From Candidatus Eiseniibacteriota bacterium (GTDB taxonomy: Bacteria; Eisenbacteria; RBG-16-71-46): a stretch of DNA of 49,005 nucleotides. The notes under the pieces are model-generated. The model was given only the letters and a program-made list of their open reading frames with translations. It did no database searches and was not told where the DNA came from. The stretch lies in assembly GCA_016223045.1 (NCBI GenBank), contig JACRPT010000078.1, positions 1 to 49,005 on the forward strand, given 5' to 3'. How positions within the stretch are numbered: position 1 is the first letter of the stretch; each line of letters starts with the position of its first letter. The position numbers and the translations under genes were made by a program. Shown here in pieces: positions 2,129 to 16,470 of this stretch.

Positions 2129-2985
2129 GGCCGTTCCTCCGCGTCCGGGCGGAAGGTCCATGTCGCGACCCACTCGTAGCCCGGCGCCGTGAGCCGCAGG
2201 CGGATCCAGCGCGTGCCGCTCGACACCACGGGTTCGCCCGTGCCCGGATCGCGGCGGGCGAAGCGCACGCGATGTTCGGCCACCGTCAGGTTGCGCCCGC
2301 CGCCCGGGTCGTACTGGTCGGGGAACAGCAGCTGCGTCCCGCGCAGCCACGGCGGGCGGTAGTAGACCCGCCGCAGCTTGAGCCCGGTGGCCGCCAGCAC
2401 GGCGGGCCCCCGGATGACTTCCAGCGGCCGCCAGGTCCGGCCGCGGTCGTCCTCGAGCACCAGGTTCGTGCGTGGGTCCAGGCGCGCGATGCCCGCCGCC
2501 CCCGGGAAGTCGAAGACGCGCAGGTCCAGTCGGAACATCAGCGCCGTGTCCTGGTCCGCGCGGATCGCGGACATGCGGTGCTCGCACTCCTCGGCGCTCA
2601 GATGCCGGGCCAGGCGCTCACGCTCCAGCTCCGCGCTGGCGCAGGTGAGCGCGATGAACGTCGCGTGCGAGGCCGTCGCGAGCGCGGGCGTGCCGCCCCT
2701 GACCTGCACCCAGGGCGCGGTCCACGAGTCGTAGGCCCACTCGATGACGCCGGCCCCGCTGGTGTCCGGGAACGCCGCCGCCGCGGCCGGCACGACGCCG
2801 CTGGAATCGGGAATCGGGGGATCACCCGACCAGACCGGCGCCGGCGCCGCGGCGGCAGCCAGGATGACCAGCAGGGTCAGGACGGCGAGCGCACGGCCCG
2901 CAGGCCGCTCCTCGTCGGCCGCCGCCTTCCCCTGCTGGCTATGGGGCCCCCATGGATGCAGGAGCCCATTCGAACTCGAACTCAT
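2125..2985 (-). CDS. Hypothetical exported protein whose signal region comes from a 71-bp repeat
   Basis: A 286-residue protein of unrecognised family. The hydrophobic core of the signal peptide runs about residues 36-50 (VLTLLVILAAAAAP), with basic residues before it; the mature part is beta-rich with repeated Arg/Trp positions and no obvious metal motif. The ATG at 2985 follows GGAGGTGTG with ideal spacing. Residues about 16-39 are encoded by the 71-bp repeat at 2868-2938, which also occurs in non-coding DNA at 4116-4186, so part of the export signal appears to have been built from a repeat element. No start codon is visible just after the repeat that would keep a signal peptide. It overlaps the next gene by 4 bp and probably acts in the envelope with the copper proteins. 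Confidence 0.65.
   Translation of the reverse strand: MSSSSNGLLHPWGPHSQQGKAAADEERPAGRALAVLTLLVILAAAAAPAPVWSGDPPIPDSSGVVPAAAAAFPDTSGAGVIEWAYDSWTAPWVQVRGGTPALATASHATFIALTCASAELERERLARHLSAEECEHRMSAIRADQDTALMFRLDLRVFDFPGAAGIARLDPRTNLVLEDDRGRTWRPLEVIRGPAVLAATGLKLRRVYYRPPWLRGTQLLFPDQYDPGGGRNLTVAEHRVRFARRDPGTGEPVVSSGTRWIRLRLTAPGYEWVATWTFRPDAEERP
2868..2938. repeat. 71-bp dispersed hairpin repeat, copy A (inside a coding region)
   Basis: This stretch aligns without gaps to 4116-4186, differing at 8 of 71 positions by my count. Its ends are a perfect 9-bp inverted repeat, CCAGCAGGG and CCCTGCTGG. An internal CGGCC/GGCCG stem is closed by a 4-base loop (TGCG on the minus strand). It lies inside the N-terminal coding region of the exported protein at 2125-2985. 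Confidence 0.85.
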
Positions 2986-3059
2986 CTCACACCTCCTGCC
3001 GGGCGCCACCGCGCCCCTAGAACCGGCCTGCCGCGCGGTCGCACGCGCGACCCGGGCGC

Positions 3060-3560
3060 TCACGGCTCCGCCCGGTAGCCGAGCCGGGCGATGGCGTCGG
3101 TCATGGTTTCCCGGGCCACCTTGCCCGGTGTGAAGTCCACGCGGACCTCGCCGGTCTCGAGGTTCGTGCTCACGCGCTCCACGCCGGGGAGCTGGAGCAG
3201 CCCCTGCTCGATGGCCCGGGTGCACGACGTGCAGTGCATGCCGGGCACCTTCAGGACCGCCCGCTCACCGTCGGGTACGAACCCGGCGCGCCGCACCTCG
3301 ACGAACACGTTGGCCGCCGTGATGTCATCCGGCCGATGGCGCACCCGGAGGACGCCGGTCTGCGGGTTCGCGATCGCGCTCTCCACCCCCGGCAGGGCAC
3401 GCAGGTGCCTGGTCAATCTGCGCGCGCAGAAGGCGCAGTCGAGCCCGGCCACGTGCGCCTCGAGGGTCTCGCAGGAGTGCCGCGGGCCCTGGGACTGACC
3501 GTCCCGCGTCCCCGCAGCGGACGGACCCGGCCTCTCGTTCGACCGATCGGCGCGTTCCAT
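3060..3560 (-). CDS. Double heavy-metal-associated (HMA) domain copper chaperone
   Basis: A 166-residue cytoplasmic protein with two ferredoxin-like HMA domains. The first spans about residues 35-94 with a CXXC at 42-45 (DCAFC). The second spans about 101-166 with the classical GMHCTSC, CXXC at 110-113, and the usual 'LPGVERVSTNLETGEV' strand. Such domains carry Cu(I) to P1B ATPases and are often found as their N-terminal domains; here they stand alone. The ATG at 3560 shares one base with the stop of the upstream gene (TGATG) and has GGAGGG in front, so the two are probably translationally coupled. Likely a Cu(I) chaperone feeding CopA (14128-16470) or buffering cytoplasmic copper. The first 30 residues are low-complexity. 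Confidence 0.88.
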   Translation of the reverse strand: MERADRSNERPGPSAAGTRDGQSQGPRHSCETLEAHVAGLDCAFCARRLTRHLRALPGVESAIANPQTGVLRVRHRPDDITAANVFVEVRRAGFVPDGERAVLKVPGMHCTSCTRAIEQGLLQLPGVERVSTNLETGEVRVDFTPGKVARETMTDAIARLGYRAEP

Positions 3561-4099
3561 CACTCCCTCCTCGGTCCTCTTCGTGCGGAGCGCTTCATGC
3601 CGCCGCCCCGCGCGTCGTCCTCCTGCGCGTCGCCGGGAACCCGAACGCCGGGCCCCCCGGCCGCGCAGGCCGCCCGCAGCATCGCCTCCGGGGCCTGCCC
3701 CTGCTGCGCCGTCGGCTCCAGCACCTGCGGGACGCATGTCCGGTCGAAGCCGAGGTGCGGCGCCCCGGTCCGCACCGCCCGCACGGTGACGCGCAGGATG
3801 CACTCGTAAGGGATGATCTCGGTCCTCATCGGTGGGGCGGAGGTGCTGCGTTCCGTCTCGTTCACGGCGAGCGCCACCCACCCCGGCGTCACGCCGATGA
3901 CGTGGCACAGGTCGAGCACCGCGCCGTCCATGAGATGCAGCTCCACCACGGGCAGTCCCTCCGCCGCCCCGGGGCAGCGGTCGCGGACGAACGCCCGCAG
4001 CTGGCCGAGGAAGAACGCGGGCCCGAAGGGAACCTGTCGCACCAGCTCCGCCGGCAGGGCGGCCACGGCGGCTTCGTTTGCGTCGGCAACGCCGCTCAT
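3560..4099 (-). CDS. Hypothetical protein downstream of cusA (179 aa)
   Basis: Not recognised. The 179-residue product has no signal peptide. It has a helical N-terminal third, then alternating hydrophobic strands around 'VVELHLMDGAVLDLCHVIGVTPGWVALAV' (about residues 50-75), then 'RTEIIPYECILRVTV'. The last 40 residues are low-complexity, end in a basic tail, and overlap the ribosome-binding site of the next gene. The ATG at 4099 is chosen over an upstream extension because AGGAAGG lies about 6 nt before it and the 71-bp repeat lies just upstream. It is 130 bp downstream of cusA and coupled to the double-HMA gene, so a role in copper homeostasis is inferred from position only. Confidence 0.55.
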   Translation of the reverse strand: MSGVADANEAAVAALPAELVRQVPFGPAFFLGQLRAFVRDRCPGAAEGLPVVELHLMDGAVLDLCHVIGVTPGWVALAVNETERSTSAPPMRTEIIPYECILRVTVRAVRTGAPHLGFDRTCVPQVLEPTAQQGQAPEAMLRAACAAGGPGVRVPGDAQEDDARGGGMKRSARRGPRRE

Positions 4100-4115
4100 G
4101 GGAGCCTTCCTGTTA

Positions 4116-4186
4116 CCGGCAGGGTCGGGACGGCGAGCGCACGGCCCGAAGGCCGCCCCTTGTACGCCGCCGCCTTCCCCTGCCGG
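4116..4186. repeat. 71-bp dispersed hairpin repeat, copy B (intergenic)
   Basis: Second copy of the element at 2868-2938, in the 130-bp gap between cusA and the next gene of the operon. The terminal inverted repeat is CCGGCAGGG and CCCTGCCGG. Relative to copy A, one A-T pair has become G-C on both arms, a compensatory change that keeps the stem. The internal stem is CGGCC-TTCG-GGCCG on the transcribed (minus) strand, capped by a TTCG loop that is known to be stable in RNA. Confidence 0.85.
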
Positions 4187-4229
4187 CTTCGAATGGCCCG
4201 CTCGCGGGGGCTCGTCATCGCACCTGCAC

Positions 4230-7200
4230 TCATGCGATCTCCCGCACCGCGAGCCGACGCTCACGCTTCAGCTGCGCGTAGCGCCAATACGTGTAGACCA
4301 CCGGGATGATCTCGAGCGTCAGGAACGCCGAGGTGAAGAGCCCGCCCACCATCGGCGCCGCGACGCGCTTCATCACGTCCGCGCCGGCGCCCTGCGACCA
4401 CAGCAGCGGCACCAGGCCGATCATCATGGTGGCGACCGTCATGAGCTTCGGCCGCACGCGCTGCACCGAGCCCTCGAGCGTGGCCTCGACGATGTCGTCC
4501 AGGTCGCGGATGCGGCCCTCGCGCTTCCAGCGGTGGTAGGCGCTGTCGCAGTACACCACCATCACGACGCCGGTCTGCGCCGCCAGCCCCACCAGGGCGA
4601 TGATGCCCACCCACACCGCGGTGGACAGGTTGTAGTGGAGCAGGCCCATGAGCCAGACGCTGCCCACCAGGGCGAAGGGCACTGAAGCCAGCACGATCAG
4701 CGACTCGGTCAGGTTGCCGAAGTTCATGTAGAGGAGCAGCAGCACGATGAAGAGCGTGAGCGGCACCAGGAACTTCATGCGCTTCTGCATCTGCTCCATC
4801 AGTTCGTACTGGCCGGTCCACTTGAGGAAGTAGCCGGAGGGAAGTCGGACCTCCTTCGCCACCAGCTTCTTGGCGTCGTCCACGTAGCTGCCGATGTCGC
4901 GCTTCGCGGCATCCATGTCCACGTAGGTCCAGCCCACCAGCATCCCCGCCTCGTCGCGGATCATGGGCGGCCCGGTGACGATTCGGATGTCGGCGATCTG
5001 TCCCAGCGGCACGTGAGGCCCGCCGACCTCGGTCCAGCGCTCGGAACCCGACGGCGGCGCGGACCCGCCCGGTGGCAGCGAGTTGTCCGCGCCACCGCCA
5101 CCGCCCATGCCCGGGCCTGCGGACGCGCCGCCCATCGAGGAGCCGCCCATCGAGCCGCTCCCTGCGGACGGGCGCCGGGCGGAACCCATGCCGCCGCCCA
5201 TCGCCTGCGCGACCCAGCTGGCGCCCGCGTCCGACTCGCCGGCCGCGGCCAGGCGCAGCGGAGCCGTCACGGGGACCGCGCTCATGCCGCCCATGCCCTG
5301 ACCGCCGCCCGCGCCGGAATCGGTCGCCCGGACCGGCACCAGCACGTGCCGCAGTTGCTCCAGGTCCTCGCGCAGCTCGCGCGGGTAGCGCACGTTGATG
5401 GTGAACCGGTTCCGCCCCTCCACCGTCACCTGGATGGGCTGCCCGCCCACGGCGGCCTCGATGACGTCCTCGACGTCACCCAGGGTGATGCCGTAGCGCG
5501 CCAGCGCCGCGCGGTTCGGGACGATGTCCAGGTAGAACCCGCCGGTCGTGCGATCGGCGTAGACGCTGCGCGTGTTCGGGACCTTCGTGACGACGCGCTC
5601 GAGGTCCATGCCGATGCGCTCGATGGTGTCCAGGTTGGCACCGAAGACCTTGATCCCGATCGGCGTGCGGATCCCGGTCGAGAGCATGTCGATGCGCGTC
5701 TTGATGGGCATGGTCCAGGCGTTGGTCCACCCCGGCATCTGCAGCGTCTTGTTCAGCTCGTTCGTGAGCTCCTGCCAGGTGATCCGGTGGCGATCGGGCC
5801 AGAGCGGGCGGAACACCGGCTTGAGCCAGCCCGGCGCCCGCTTGGAATACCAGCGCGGCGTCTCCACCATGCGCCACTGCTCCCGCGGCTTGAGCTTGAC
5901 CACGGTCTCCACCATGGAGAGCGGCGCCGGGTCGGTGGGGGTCTCCGACCGGCCGGTCTTGCCGAACACCCGCTCGACCTCGGGCACGCTGGCGATGAGC
6001 CGGTCCTGCACCTGGAGGTAGCGCTTGGCCTCCTCGATCGAGATGTTGGGGAACGTGGTCGGCATGTAGAGCATGTCGCCCTCATTCAAGGGCGGCATGA
6101 ACTCGTTCCCGAGACGCATCGCCATGGGGACGGCCGACAGCACCGCCGCCAGGCCGATCGCGATCGTGGTCTTCGGGTTCTTGAGCGCCACCCAGGCGAA
6201 GGGCCGGTAGACGGAGATCATCACGCGCGAGACCGGGTGGTCCTTCTCGTGCTTGATCTTGCCGCGGATGAAGAGCGACATGAGCGCCGGCGCCAGCGTG
6301 ATGGAGACCAGCGCGGCGAAGCCCATGGCGAAGGTCTTGGTGAAAGCCAGCGGCTTGAACAGCCGCCCGGCCTGGCCGTTGAGCCCGAAGATCGGCAGGA
6401 ACGCCACGGTGATGATGAGGAGCGAGAAGAAGATCGGAGGACCCACCTCCTTCGCCGCCTCGATCAGCACCTTCTGATGGTCTGCACCGGGTGGCGCGGA
6501 CTCCAGGTGTTTGTGGGCGTTCTCCACCAGCACGATCGCCGCGTCCACCATGGCGCCGATCGCGATGGCGATGCCGCCCAGGCTCATGATGTTGGAGTTG
6601 ACGCCGAGGAAGTACATCGGCACGAACGCGAGCGCCACCGCCACCGGGAGCGCGAGCACCGGGACCAGCGTGCTGCGCACGTGCAGCAGGAAGATGAAGA
6701 TGATGAGGCTGACGACGATGCCTTCCTCGAGCAGCGTGTGCTTGAGCGTCTCGATCGCCCGCTCGATGAGCGTCGAGCGGTCGTAGACGATCTTGACCTC
6801 GACGCCCGGCGGGAACGAGGGCTTCAGCTCCGCCAGCTTCTTCTTCACGCGCTCGATCACATGCAGCGCGTTCTCGCCGTAGCGCATCACCACGGTCCCG
6901 CCCACCGCCTCGCCCTCGCCGTCCAGCTCGGAGACGCCGCGGCGGATATCGGGGCCGAAGCTGACCGTGCCCACCTCGGCGACCCGGATGGGCGTGCCGG
7001 TCCTGCGGTCCACGCCCAGCGCGATCTGGCGCATGTCGTCCAGGCTCTTCACGTATCCGCGGCCGCGCACGAAGTACTCGCGGCCCGACATCTCGATCAC
7101 CCGCCCGCCCACGTCGGCGTTGCTCCGGCGGATGGCGGCGGACACGTCGGCCAGCGAGAGCCCGTAGGCATGGAGCTTCGCCGGGTCCACCTGGACCTGG

Positions 7201-7760
7201 TACTGCTTCTGGTATCCGCCGACCGTGGCGATCTCGGCCACGCCGGGCACGCTCGCCAGCGCGTAGCGCAGGTTGAAGTCCTGGAAGGTGCGCAGCTCGG
7301 CCAGGTCGTGCCTGCCGGTCTTGTCCACCAGGGCGTACTGGAACACCCAGCCCACCGAGGTGGCGTCGGGGCCGATCACCGGGCTGACGCCCTGGGGCAG
7401 GCGTCCGCGGATGCTGTTCATGTACTCGAGCACGCGGCTGCGCGCCCAGTACAGGTCGGTGCCCTCCTCGAAGATGACGTAGATGAAGCTCATCCCGAAC
7501 ATGGACTGGCCGCGCACCGCCTGCACGCGAGGCGCGGCGAGCAGCGTGGCCACGATCGGGTAGGTGACCTGATCCTCGACCAGGTCCGGACTCCGCCCCA
7601 TCCACTCGGTCCAGATGATGACCTGCGGGTCGCTGAGGTCCGGGATGGCGTCCAGCGGCACGCTCCTGACCGCGATCAGGGCCCCGACCATCACGAAGGC
7701 CGTGAAGATGAAGACCAGGGCCCGGTGGGTCGCGCAGTATTCGATGACGCGGCCGATCAC
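4230..7760 (-). CDS. cusA: CusA-type copper/silver efflux RND transporter with Gly/Met-rich insertion
   Basis: An inner-membrane heavy-metal RND pump of 1176 residues (E. coli CusA is 1047). It should drive Cu(I)/Ag(I) from periplasm or cytoplasm through CusB and CusC using proton flow. Diagnostic features are the N-terminal 'SVPLDAIPDLSDPQV', the TM4 motif GAMVDAAIVLVEN, and IDMLSTGI near residue 690, which carries the Met matching the first Met of the CusA copper triad. A second matching Met is in GPPMIRDE. Between the periplasmic strand ending LVPV and 'VPLGQIADI' is an insertion of roughly 95 residues rich in Gly, Ser and Met (encoded around 5040-5330), absent from E. coli CusA. The ATG overlaps the end of cusB by 4 bp (ATGA). 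Assignment to copper/silver rests on the Met positions and the operon. Confidence 0.93.
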   Translation of the reverse strand: MIGRVIEYCATHRALVFIFTAFVMVGALIAVRSVPLDAIPDLSDPQVIIWTEWMGRSPDLVEDQVTYPIVATLLAAPRVQAVRGQSMFGMSFIYVIFEEGTDLYWARSRVLEYMNSIRGRLPQGVSPVIGPDATSVGWVFQYALVDKTGRHDLAELRTFQDFNLRYALASVPGVAEIATVGGYQKQYQVQVDPAKLHAYGLSLADVSAAIRRSNADVGGRVIEMSGREYFVRGRGYVKSLDDMRQIALGVDRRTGTPIRVAEVGTVSFGPDIRRGVSELDGEGEAVGGTVVMRYGENALHVIERVKKKLAELKPSFPPGVEVKIVYDRSTLIERAIETLKHTLLEEGIVVSLIIFIFLLHVRSTLVPVLALPVAVALAFVPMYFLGVNSNIMSLGGIAIAIGAMVDAAIVLVENAHKHLESAPPGADHQKVLIEAAKEVGPPIFFSLLIITVAFLPIFGLNGQAGRLFKPLAFTKTFAMGFAALVSITLAPALMSLFIRGKIKHEKDHPVSRVMISVYRPFAWVALKNPKTTIAIGLAAVLSAVPMAMRLGNEFMPPLNEGDMLYMPTTFPNISIEEAKRYLQVQDRLIASVPEVERVFGKTGRSETPTDPAPLSMVETVVKLKPREQWRMVETPRWYSKRAPGWLKPVFRPLWPDRHRITWQELTNELNKTLQMPGWTNAWTMPIKTRIDMLSTGIRTPIGIKVFGANLDTIERIGMDLERVVTKVPNTRSVYADRTTGGFYLDIVPNRAALARYGITLGDVEDVIEAAVGGQPIQVTVEGRNRFTINVRYPRELREDLEQLRHVLVPVRATDSGAGGGQGMGGMSAVPVTAPLRLAAAGESDAGASWVAQAMGGGMGSARRPSAGSGSMGGSSMGGASAGPGMGGGGGADNSLPPGGSAPPSGSERWTEVGGPHVPLGQIADIRIVTGPPMIRDEAGMLVGWTYVDMDAAKRDIGSYVDDAKKLVAKEVRLPSGYFLKWTGQYELMEQMQKRMKFLVPLTLFIVLLLLYMNFGNLTESLIVLASVPFALVGSVWLMGLLHYNLSTAVWVGIIALVGLAAQTGVVMVVYCDSAYHRWKREGRIRDLDDIVEATLEGSVQRVRPKLMTVATMMIGLVPLLWSQGAGADVMKRVAAPMVGGLFTSAFLTLEIIPVVYTYWRYAQLKRERRLAVREIA

Positions 7761-9163
7761 GGCGTCCCTCCGGGTTCGTGACTCATCCCCGCCATGCCGG
7801 GCTGCGAGCCCTTGCCGGACATCGAGGCCTTGAGCCGGCTCTCGGAGTCGATGAGGAAGGACGCGCTCGCCACGACCGTGTCGCCCGCGGCGAGGCCCCT
7901 GAGGATCTGCACCCGCTCGCCGTCCTGCTCTCCGGTCTCCACCATGCGCGGGTCGAAGTGTCCGCCCGCATGCGCGATGAACACGTAGTCGTGCTGCCCG
8001 GCGCGGATGACGGCCTCCTGCGGCACGGTGAGCTCGAGCCTGGCGTGCGACGCGACCTGCACGCGGCCGTACATCCCGGGCTTGAGGATTCCGCCCGGGT
8101 TGTCGAACGCGAGCCGCACCTTGAGGGTGCGCGTCTGGTTCGAGACGGTCGGGTAGATGAACTGCACCGCGCCTTCGAACGGACGCGCCGGCATCGCATC
8201 CGCCACGAAGCGGACGCGGTCGCCCGCCTTCACGCGGCCCATGTCCATCTCGTACAGGTCGGCGAGCACCCAGACGCGGGACAGGTCCGCCAGGGAGAAG
8301 AGCGGCGTGTCCGCACCGACGTACTGCCCTTCGACCACGCCGCGCTCGAGCACCGTGCCGTCGACCGGCGAGCGCAGCACCAGGCGCGTCGTCGGCGTCC
8401 GCTCCCGCTGGAGCCGCCGCACCTCCTCGTCGGGAACGCCGAGCAGGCGCAGGCGCACCTCGGTGTCCCGGGTGCCCGGCCCGCTGGCGCCAAGGGAGTC
8501 ACCTGCGCCCTGCTCGATCAGGAATTCGCGTTCGCTCTGGTAGAGCTCGGGGCTGTAGATGGCGAGCAGCGGCTGGCCGGCCGATACCGGCTCCCCCGTG
8601 CGATTGACGTGGAGCTGCTGGATCCAGCCCGAGACGCGGATCTGCACGCGCTTGAGGCGCGACTCGTCGGGCACCACGAATCCCACGAGCTCGAGCTGGC
8701 TGCCGAGCGGCCTGCGCTCGACGCGCGCGGTGCGCACGCCGATGAGCTGGATGCGTTCCGGCGTGATCATCACCGGGACCAGACCCGGGACGTCGCTCTT
8801 CCCGGCAGGCATCGCGTGCCCCCCCTGCTCCTCCCCCACCACCACCTTCTCCAGCGTCATGCCGCAGATCGGACAATCCCCCGGTTTCTCCGAGGTGTAG
8901 TTCGGGTGCATCGGGCAGCGGTACAGCACCTGCTTCGCGGCCCGGGTCGCGCTCACCGGGCGCTTCGAGTAGACGTAGGCTCCGATGCTCACCGTGGCGA
9001 GCACCATGAGCCCGGCGAACAGCGCCCAGCGCAGGATGTTCATGAAGTGGGCCCCGGGCGGCGGCTGGTGGACCGAGGATGCGGGTCCGCCAGCGGGCGA
9101 GGCCCCGGTTCCGGGTTCAGGGGCTGATCCGGCCGGGACATTCGGCCGTTCGAGGTCGTTCAT
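7757..9163 (-). CDS. cusB: CusB-type efflux periplasmic adaptor with heavy-metal-binding domain
   Basis: A 468-residue membrane-fusion protein linking the CusA pump to the CusC channel. After a Pro/Gly-rich N-terminus there is one membrane anchor (about residues 43-66). A heavy-metal-binding domain at residues 81-106 follows (YRCPMHP...CPICGMTLEK), then the barrel-sandwich, helical hairpin and beta-barrel domains typical of HlyD/CusB adaptors (for example 'RVSGWIQQLHVNRTGEPVSAG' and 'PVDGTVLERGVVEGQYV'). The Met/Cys sites of CusB capture periplasmic Cu(I) and hand it to CusA; the HMBD probably adds to this. The last residues MAGMSHEP also carry Met/His. It overlaps cusC and cusA by 4 bp each, indicating one tightly coupled transcript. 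Confidence 0.92.
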   Translation of the reverse strand: MNDLERPNVPAGSAPEPGTGASPAGGPASSVHQPPPGAHFMNILRWALFAGLMVLATVSIGAYVYSKRPVSATRAAKQVLYRCPMHPNYTSEKPGDCPICGMTLEKVVVGEEQGGHAMPAGKSDVPGLVPVMITPERIQLIGVRTARVERRPLGSQLELVGFVVPDESRLKRVQIRVSGWIQQLHVNRTGEPVSAGQPLLAIYSPELYQSEREFLIEQGAGDSLGASGPGTRDTEVRLRLLGVPDEEVRRLQRERTPTTRLVLRSPVDGTVLERGVVEGQYVGADTPLFSLADLSRVWVLADLYEMDMGRVKAGDRVRFVADAMPARPFEGAVQFIYPTVSNQTRTLKVRLAFDNPGGILKPGMYGRVQVASHARLELTVPQEAVIRAGQHDYVFIAHAGGHFDPRMVETGEQDGERVQILRGLAAGDTVVASASFLIDSESRLKASMSGKGSQPGMAGMSHEPGGTP

Positions 9164-12419: not shown

Positions 12420-12998
12420 ATGCATCTGAAGCCGCTCGCCGCCGCCGTCCTGATCCTCGTCGTGCTGACCGGCTGCTCGAAGGACTCGCGCTCGCCCGCC
12501 GACGCCCTGAAACCGTCCGCGCCGCCCGTCGCCGTCAGCCCGGCCGACGGGGAGGCCGGCGTGCGGCTCGACGCCGGCGTGACGCTCGCCTTCGCGAAGG
12601 CCGCGGACCGGGCCGTGGTGGAGCGCGGCTTCCACCTCATCAGCGAGCCCGACATGGCCGATTCGCTCTGCCCCGACACCGCGATGGTCCACGGTTCCAT
12701 GGACTCGCTGATGATGAGCCCGGGGATGATGACCCACATGGACCAGTGGCACCACACGCCCGGCTCGTTCTCGTGGAACGGGACCTCCACCCAGGCCGTC
12801 TTCACGCCGCAGTCGTGGATGGATCCGCAGACCCGCTACATGGTCCACATGGGCGAGGAGATGGTGCAGATGATGGAAAGCCAGATGGGCGGCATGGGCT
12901 CGATGGGAGGACACGGCAGCGGCGCCATGAGCGGCCACATGATGCTGCACTTCACCACCATGGACACCACGGGCGGGCACGACGAGCACCACAAGTAG
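12420..12998 (+). CDS. Met/His-rich lipoprotein with Ig-like domain
   Basis: A 192-residue lipoprotein: signal residues 1-18, lipobox LTGC with Cys19. Residues about 36-75 (VAVSPADGEAGVRLDAGVTLAF) resemble a bacterial Ig-like (SbsA/Big_5-type) domain. The rest is strikingly rich in Met and His: MMSPGMMTHMDQWHH near the middle and a tail of MGGMGSMGGHG, GHMMLHF and HDEHHK, in line with Cu(I)/Cu(II) binding in the periplasm. The ATG at 12420 has CAGGAG 7 nt before it. An upstream ATG overlapping the previous stop (12369) would add 17 residues before the signal and is less likely. Second gene of the plus-strand cassette, 50 bp after the multidomain Cys protein. Function inferred from composition: copper sponge or chaperone. 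Confidence 0.75.
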   Translation: MHLKPLAAAVLILVVLTGCSKDSRSPADALKPSAPPVAVSPADGEAGVRLDAGVTLAFAKAADRAVVERGFHLISEPDMADSLCPDTAMVHGSMDSLMMSPGMMTHMDQWHHTPGSFSWNGTSTQAVFTPQSWMDPQTRYMVHMGEEMVQMMESQMGGMGSMGGHGSGAMSGHMMLHFTTMDTTGGHDEHHK

Positions 12999-13007
12999 GG
13001 CGGCGCG

Positions 13008-13634
13008 TTGACCACCCGCAGCAGGACCCGCGCCGGCGCGATCCCGCAGCGCGCGATGAGAGCGCTGGTCCTGCTGCCGGTCGGCCTGCTGGGCGCGGCG
13101 TGCGCGCCGATGGGCATGCCGATGATGCACGGTCCCGGCGGAGGGTCTGCCTCCCGGGCTTCGGGCCCCATCCTCAGAGAGGTCGTGGCCGGCGGGACCA
13201 GGGCGGTCGTGACCGTCCCCCCGCTCGAGGCCGGCCGGGAGGACACCCTGACCTTGAGCCTCTCGGACGCGGACCGTGCGCGGCCGTTCACCGGGGCGGA
13301 GGTGCGGCTCCGCGTGCGCGGCGCCGGCCGTCGCGATGCTCCCGCCGAGACCCCGGCTCGCGAGACCGGGCCCCCGGGTACCTACTCGGCGTCCTTCATG
13401 GCCGCGGCACCGGGGCGCGTCGAGATCGGGTTCCGCGTCGTCGTTCCCGGTGGCCGCGGGCCCGGATCGGTGCTCGAGGTGGACGCGGGCGTGGTCGTCG
13501 TCGCCCCGGCATCCGGGGCGGCTGCAGGCCATCACGGCGCTCGCCACATGGCGTCCCGCGTCGCGATCGGTGGCGCGCTGATGGCCGCGATGATGCTCGC
13601 CATGCTCGTCGCGCGCGGGGGCATGCGCTACTGA
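13008..13634 (+). CDS. Exported YtkA/FixH-like beta-sandwich protein with C-terminal membrane helix
   Basis: A 208-residue protein from a TTG start (AGGG about 7 nt upstream). An in-frame ATG at 13056 would give 192 residues and a cleaner lipoprotein-like signal (LGAAC) but has no ribosome-binding site. After a short Met-rich stretch (APMGMPMMHG), residues about 70-165 look like the YtkA/FixH-type immunoglobulin-like fold: 'DTLTLSLSDADRARPFTGAEVRLRV' and 'PGTYSASFMAAAPGRVEIGFRV'. A C-terminal helix of about 20 residues (GGALMAAMMLAMLV) probably anchors it. A similar domain is fused to the adaptor at 20386-21846. It begins 9 bp after the Met/His lipoprotein and ends the cassette. Role in copper delivery is inferred. 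Confidence 0.65.
   Translation: MTTRSRTRAGAIPQRAMRALVLLPVGLLGAACAPMGMPMMHGPGGGSASRASGPILREVVAGGTRAVVTVPPLEAGREDTLTLSLSDADRARPFTGAEVRLRVRGAGRRDAPAETPARETGPPGTYSASFMAAAPGRVEIGFRVVVPGGRGPGSVLEVDAGVVVVAPASGAAAGHHGARHMASRVAIGGALMAAMMLAMLVARGGMRY

Positions 13635-14128: not shown

Positions 14129-16470
<2,342 letters not shown>

Follow-up and report, generated by a model that had tools for sequence, protein, structure and literature searches.

A conserved hairpin element at gene junctions of copper-resistance loci in one bacterial family, a candidate cis-acting mRNA structure

Background

The copper operon of a Candidatus Eiseniibacteriota bacterium contains the same 71-nt palindromic sequence twice, which raises the question of what this repeat is: a structure kept in the mRNA, a mobile DNA element, a relic of coding sequence, or a site recognized on DNA. 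An earlier note on this locus had observed that both terminal arms changed together between the two copies, and took this covariation as an argument for selection on folding, as in REP-like or small structured RNA elements. Taken from one pair of copies, a lone compensatory change has little weight before relatives are compared. Here we analyze the repeat in the window (the whole stretch of 49,005 nt, contig JACRPT010000078.1), in its own genome and in related genomes.

Results

The repeat and its operon

Copy A (2868-2938) and copy B (4116-4186), both assigned to the minus strand and delineated by alignment, folding and a covariance model, are identical at 63 of 71 positions, and their realignment reproduced the gapless match with eight differences described previously. 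The similarity is far above chance (BLAST against the whole genome, E 2e-20). The 9-bp terminal inverted repeats are CCAGCAGGG/CCCTGCTGG in one copy and CCGGCAGGG/CCCTGCCGG in the other, and element positions 3 and 69 are indeed altered together between A and B. The inner CGGCC/GGCCG stem was likewise confirmed; in the minus-strand reading its cap is TTCG in copy B (cUUCGg on the sense strand) and TGCG in copy A.

The operon is transcribed from the minus strand; neither this direction nor the open frames around both copies figured in the earlier note. In reading order it comprises the gene of a CusB-type membrane-fusion protein with a heavy-metal-binding domain (7757-9163, assigned by family search), then cusA, which codes for a CusA/CzcA heavy-metal efflux RND transporter (4230-7760, TIGR00914), gene C (3560-4099, 179 aa, with a homologue in genome G016), the gene of a protein with two heavy-metal-associated (HMA) domains (3062-3560), ORF A directly downstream of the latter (2125-2985, 286 aa), and genes of HMBD and cupredoxin proteins, all on the minus strand. 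ORF A, whose ATG at 2985 is preceded by an AGGAGGT site, has a signal-peptide-like N-terminus partly encoded by copy A, which occupies codons 16-39. Between cusA and gene C, copy B is enclosed by a putative 45-aa open frame, ORF B (4096-4233, minus strand); the ATG of this frame overlaps the cusA stop codon (ATGA), and its TGA overlaps the start codon (ATG) of gene C. Neither ORF A nor gene C has a match to any Pfam or NCBIfam family. These two genes and the homologue of gene H (12444-12998; see below), which has merely a weak Ig-like match in Pfam, are all found in the copper cluster although they belong to no clear families.

Both copies begin 47 nt past the first base of an ATG and in the same frame, and the stretches between ATG and repeat are weakly alike (19/44, P 0.012), so that A and B may derive from one duplicated leader segment. 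The 3' arm codes for LAVLTLLV-type residues, and seven of the eight differences between A and B are amino-acid changes, which indicates that the protein sequence is not the thing conserved.

Folding of the two copies

Each copy folds, as a nested hairpin, better than all 200 of its dinucleotide shuffles, with z-scores on the minus strand of -4.49 (A) and -4.40 (B), and on the plus strand of -3.38 (A) and -4.39 (B). Folds of this strength are no great rarity in the contig, which has 72% G+C: of 12,234 sampled 71-nt windows, 66 equal or exceed copy A in fold stability on the minus strand. The strongest plus-strand fold of the contig is found at 14781-14855 (-55.6 kcal/mol per 71 nt; -53.8 on the minus strand), and perfect inverted repeats with arms of 9-11 bp and spacers of 30-60 nt occur over positions 1-49005 at about twice the frequency of dinucleotide-shuffled sequence (9-bp arms, 67 vs 38; 11-bp arms, 8 vs 3.4).

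We simulated random sets of eight type-matched substitutions, and 19-38% of them produced one or more double-sided compensatory pairs; hence the lone A/B pair is insufficient as evidence of selection. The observed joint fold energy of A and B was reached in 0.3-4.4% of simulations. The A/B covariation, i.e. the single pair 3/69, is thus suggestive of selection on folding and not decisive. A test of pairs kept between A and B was left out because it is circular, the structure having been derived from both copies.

Further copies and homologous elements in relatives

Neither BLAST nor the covariance model revealed a third copy in the source genome (3.88 Mb, 97.6% complete), the window has no Rfam match at the gathering threshold, and the element was not found in viral contigs. 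A covariance model built from A and B (R1) was run on 20 other genomes of the order and gave a sole match, in genome G004 (G004:C8:50184-50254), which is full length (71 nt), ungapped, and has an E-value of 8e-5. It is located 60 nt upstream of an ATG of the only ORF A homologue that the search of the order found; the search of 385 relatives likewise found an ORF A homologue in G004 only. The three-member model, run on these 385 relatives, added one member in genome G006 (G006:C8:4947-5018), in which no ORF A homologue was found by the same search. G004 and G006 are two related species in another genus of the same family. Their elements follow directly after the same His/Met-rich gene, here gene H, and both are in copper loci; in genome G008 gene H is present and is not followed by a member. 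The place that ORF A occupies in G004 is taken in G006 by a long frame (L041, 1-1335, minus strand) that contains a DPCCGTG methylase-like motif, perhaps a restriction-modification gene in place of ORF A.

The arms of the G004 and G006 elements are identical at 19/21 and 21/22 positions; their apices (28 and 29 nt) are dissimilar, and the spacers on either side can scarcely be aligned. In total we thus have four members in three genomes, all of them in copper loci and in the orientation of the operon, with a gene order near the element that differs between genomes.

The four-member model gave no further convincing match over the genomes of the order. Weak model matches in G001 and G007 (E 0.03-0.16) fall inside long ORFs and seem due to chance. 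Matches of 14-31 nt elsewhere in the source genome and in G019 were also considered, and the two inspected (L003, L031) have no hairpin arms. With the four-member model, the sole pattern match in the genome collection, from Bifidobacterium (L032), reaches no more than 11.8 bits, and we regard it as chance. In the window, the best non-self match of this model (16.7 bits, E 0.16) is a plus-strand hairpin at 13018-13077 with 11-bp perfect arms (GCAGCAGGACC/GGTCCTGCTGC), which covers the start codon of the gene that follows the gene H homologue, the position at which G004 and G006 bear the element; it is possibly a diverged member, or chance.

REP/REPIN elements are numerous and extragenic. The repeat described here is similar to them as a short G+C-rich palindrome, and the earlier note had named REP-like elements as one possible parallel, proposing a whole-genome BLASTN search and naming a lack of further copies as grounds for dropping the idea. 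The search returned no further copies, and the dispersed-repeat reading fails: the genome holds two copies, both in one operon, with A inside ORF A and B inside a short open frame, and each of the two relatives has one.

Structure versus code across the four members

Of the stem cells in the four-member alignment, 95.8% are paired, compared with 28-51% when the partners are slid. The alignment columns 3/70 and 17/55 are altered on both sides, and the pair 5/68 changes from C-G to U-G, which pairs in sense RNA only. The shuffle control for this covariation is modest (23/500), which is to be expected of four sequences. The sense strand folds more stably than the antisense strand in all four members (-47.2/-42.2, -50.4/-45.7, -42.4/-40.7 and -41.4/-34.1), and the loops of A and B (UGCG and UUCG) are of the UNCG type in the sense orientation only. 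The common architecture is built from a pair of stacked basal stems with an internal loop, bulged U's that are conserved and an apex that varies.

The differences show no third-position bias, being distributed over the three codon positions as 7:6:7 between A and G004 and 3:4:1 between A and B. In G006 there is a stop in the A/B frame and the apex is longer by one base, therefore no single frame reads both arms in all members. From this we conclude that the arms are conserved for their structure, and that a coding role in ORF A, perhaps also in ORF B, is secondary. The comparison with relatives thereby lends selection on folding the support that the A/B pair could not give alone, and of the two readings offered earlier that of a small structured RNA element survives.

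Discussion

Origin and possible function of the element

The reading we favour, about evenly balanced between right and wrong in our judgement, is that the element is a cis-acting mRNA hairpin of copper-resistance operons in one bacterial family, placed at gene junctions. These junctions are cusA/gene C (copy B), the HMA gene/ORF A (copy A), gene H/ORF A (G004) and the region after gene H (G006). The reading draws on the homology and pairing of the four members, their position, their diverged flanks, their linkage to copper genes and their stronger sense fold; the combination of a conserved stable hairpin, a gene junction and the sense orientation is that of intercistronic hairpins. Such an element would be transcribed, would fold in the cell and would affect expression, with or without dependence on copper. 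When ribosome traffic is low the hairpin might slow exonucleases and limit the expression of the cistron downstream, or alternatively protect the upstream mRNA, and so help to set the ratio of the pump (cusBA) to accessory proteins. Ribosomes starting from an overlapping or nearby ATG (ORF B, ORF A) would melt it and thereby couple downstream expression to translation. A and B probably go back to a single leader segment that was duplicated locally, and ORF A may later have adopted the 3' arm as signal-peptide codons.

Several features speak against an mRNA hairpin. In the source genome ORF A, and perhaps ORF B, reads through it, so that ribosomes may usually hold it open; both arms are G+C-rich and the 3' arm can be read as signal-peptide codons; there are four members in three genomes, with the modest shuffle control given above. 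The copies have no terminator-like site (hairpin and U run), and co-transcription with the copper genes in G004 and G006 is putative.

The main rival is a mobile element: a palindrome of low copy number, akin to MITEs, REPs or RPEs, whose inverted ends are conserved and whose middle varies, and which would have inserted at copper-gene junctions, where in-frame copies were tolerated. We find it doubtful, while giving it appreciable weight. The similarity of A and B stops at the palindrome ends, the arms are conserved and the middle is variable, the copies sit at different genes, and both copies of the source genome are in open frames. There is also a precedent in the Rickettsia palindromic elements (RPEs), which are likewise palindromes in frame within protein genes; RPEs, however, are about 150 bp long and are found many per genome in unrelated genes (PMC10969869), whereas the present element has 71 bp, two copies per genome and copper loci as its only location. 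Mobility fits poorly with two copies in 3.9 Mb and one per relative, all of them in copper loci, and the shared place of the G004 and G006 elements behind gene H is consistent with descent. The ends show no evident target duplication, with flanks too diverged to define empty sites, and plasmid and phage records contain no full-length match apart from weak G+C-rich ones.

Alternatively, the repeat could be the signal-peptide end of a duplicated ORF A, with copy B and the G004 and G006 copies as remnants of decayed gene starts and the hairpin as a by-product. The equal distance of A and B from an ATG in the same frame, the weak upstream likeness and the LAVLTLLV-type residues of the 3' arm agree with this origin, but the predominance of amino-acid changes, the absent third-position bias and the frame broken in G006 by the stop and the longer apex do not, and conservation of the 5' arm and the covarying pairs would be left unexplained; we therefore regard it as quite improbable. 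A folded or palindromic DNA site for a site-specific recombinase or DNA-binding protein, to which two paired boxes around an internal loop, conserved unpaired T's, a variable apex and the changing gene order would be suited, is very improbable, since the element lacks AAC...GTT, the end motifs by which integron attC sites are defined, and its U-G pairing and UNCG loops favour sense RNA.

Comparison with known systems

If the element is an mRNA hairpin, its general kind is familiar. Intercistronic mRNA hairpins, e.g. that of the puf operon of Rhodobacter, confer segment-specific mRNA stability. With hairpins of the puf type the element shares a stable hairpin at the junction of genes in a polycistronic operon, the absence of a U run, and the sense orientation; it differs from them in that homologous sequence recurs at several copper-locus junctions and is, in one genome, coding too. 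A probable regulatory hairpin would then double as coding sequence in one genome and not in its relatives.

The nearest studied copper systems are the CutF and CruR upstream frames. In the cutFOG operon of Rhodobacter capsulatus, a small CutF frame lies ahead of an mRNA stem-loop, which restricts how far the following gene is translated (PMC9973294), and cruR of Bordetella pertussis is a copper-responsive upstream frame (PMC9426467). What is alike is the layout only, a copper operon with a small frame and a stem-loop. The putative ORF B differs from CutF and CruR in having no cysteine and no DUF2946 match (no Pfam match even at E 1), and without the cysteine motif and the protein family it is not a member of this group. 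Moreover, its hairpin is inside the frame, unlike that of cutFOG, and the AGGAAG site of gene C is outside the stem. A more far-reaching version of our reading, in which a previously undescribed copper-operon RNA element acts post-transcriptionally, the ribosomes of a coupled small frame cross its hairpin, the whole is a cysteine-free analogue of CutF/CruR in a small phylum, and one copy now serves as signal-peptide code, seems to us improbable. Judged from the genomes compared, the hairpin motif itself appears narrow, undescribed and of a known general kind, and has a real chance of being a new control element of copper operons. In that case the small set of post-transcriptional controls known for copper homeostasis would gain a family-restricted RNA structure.
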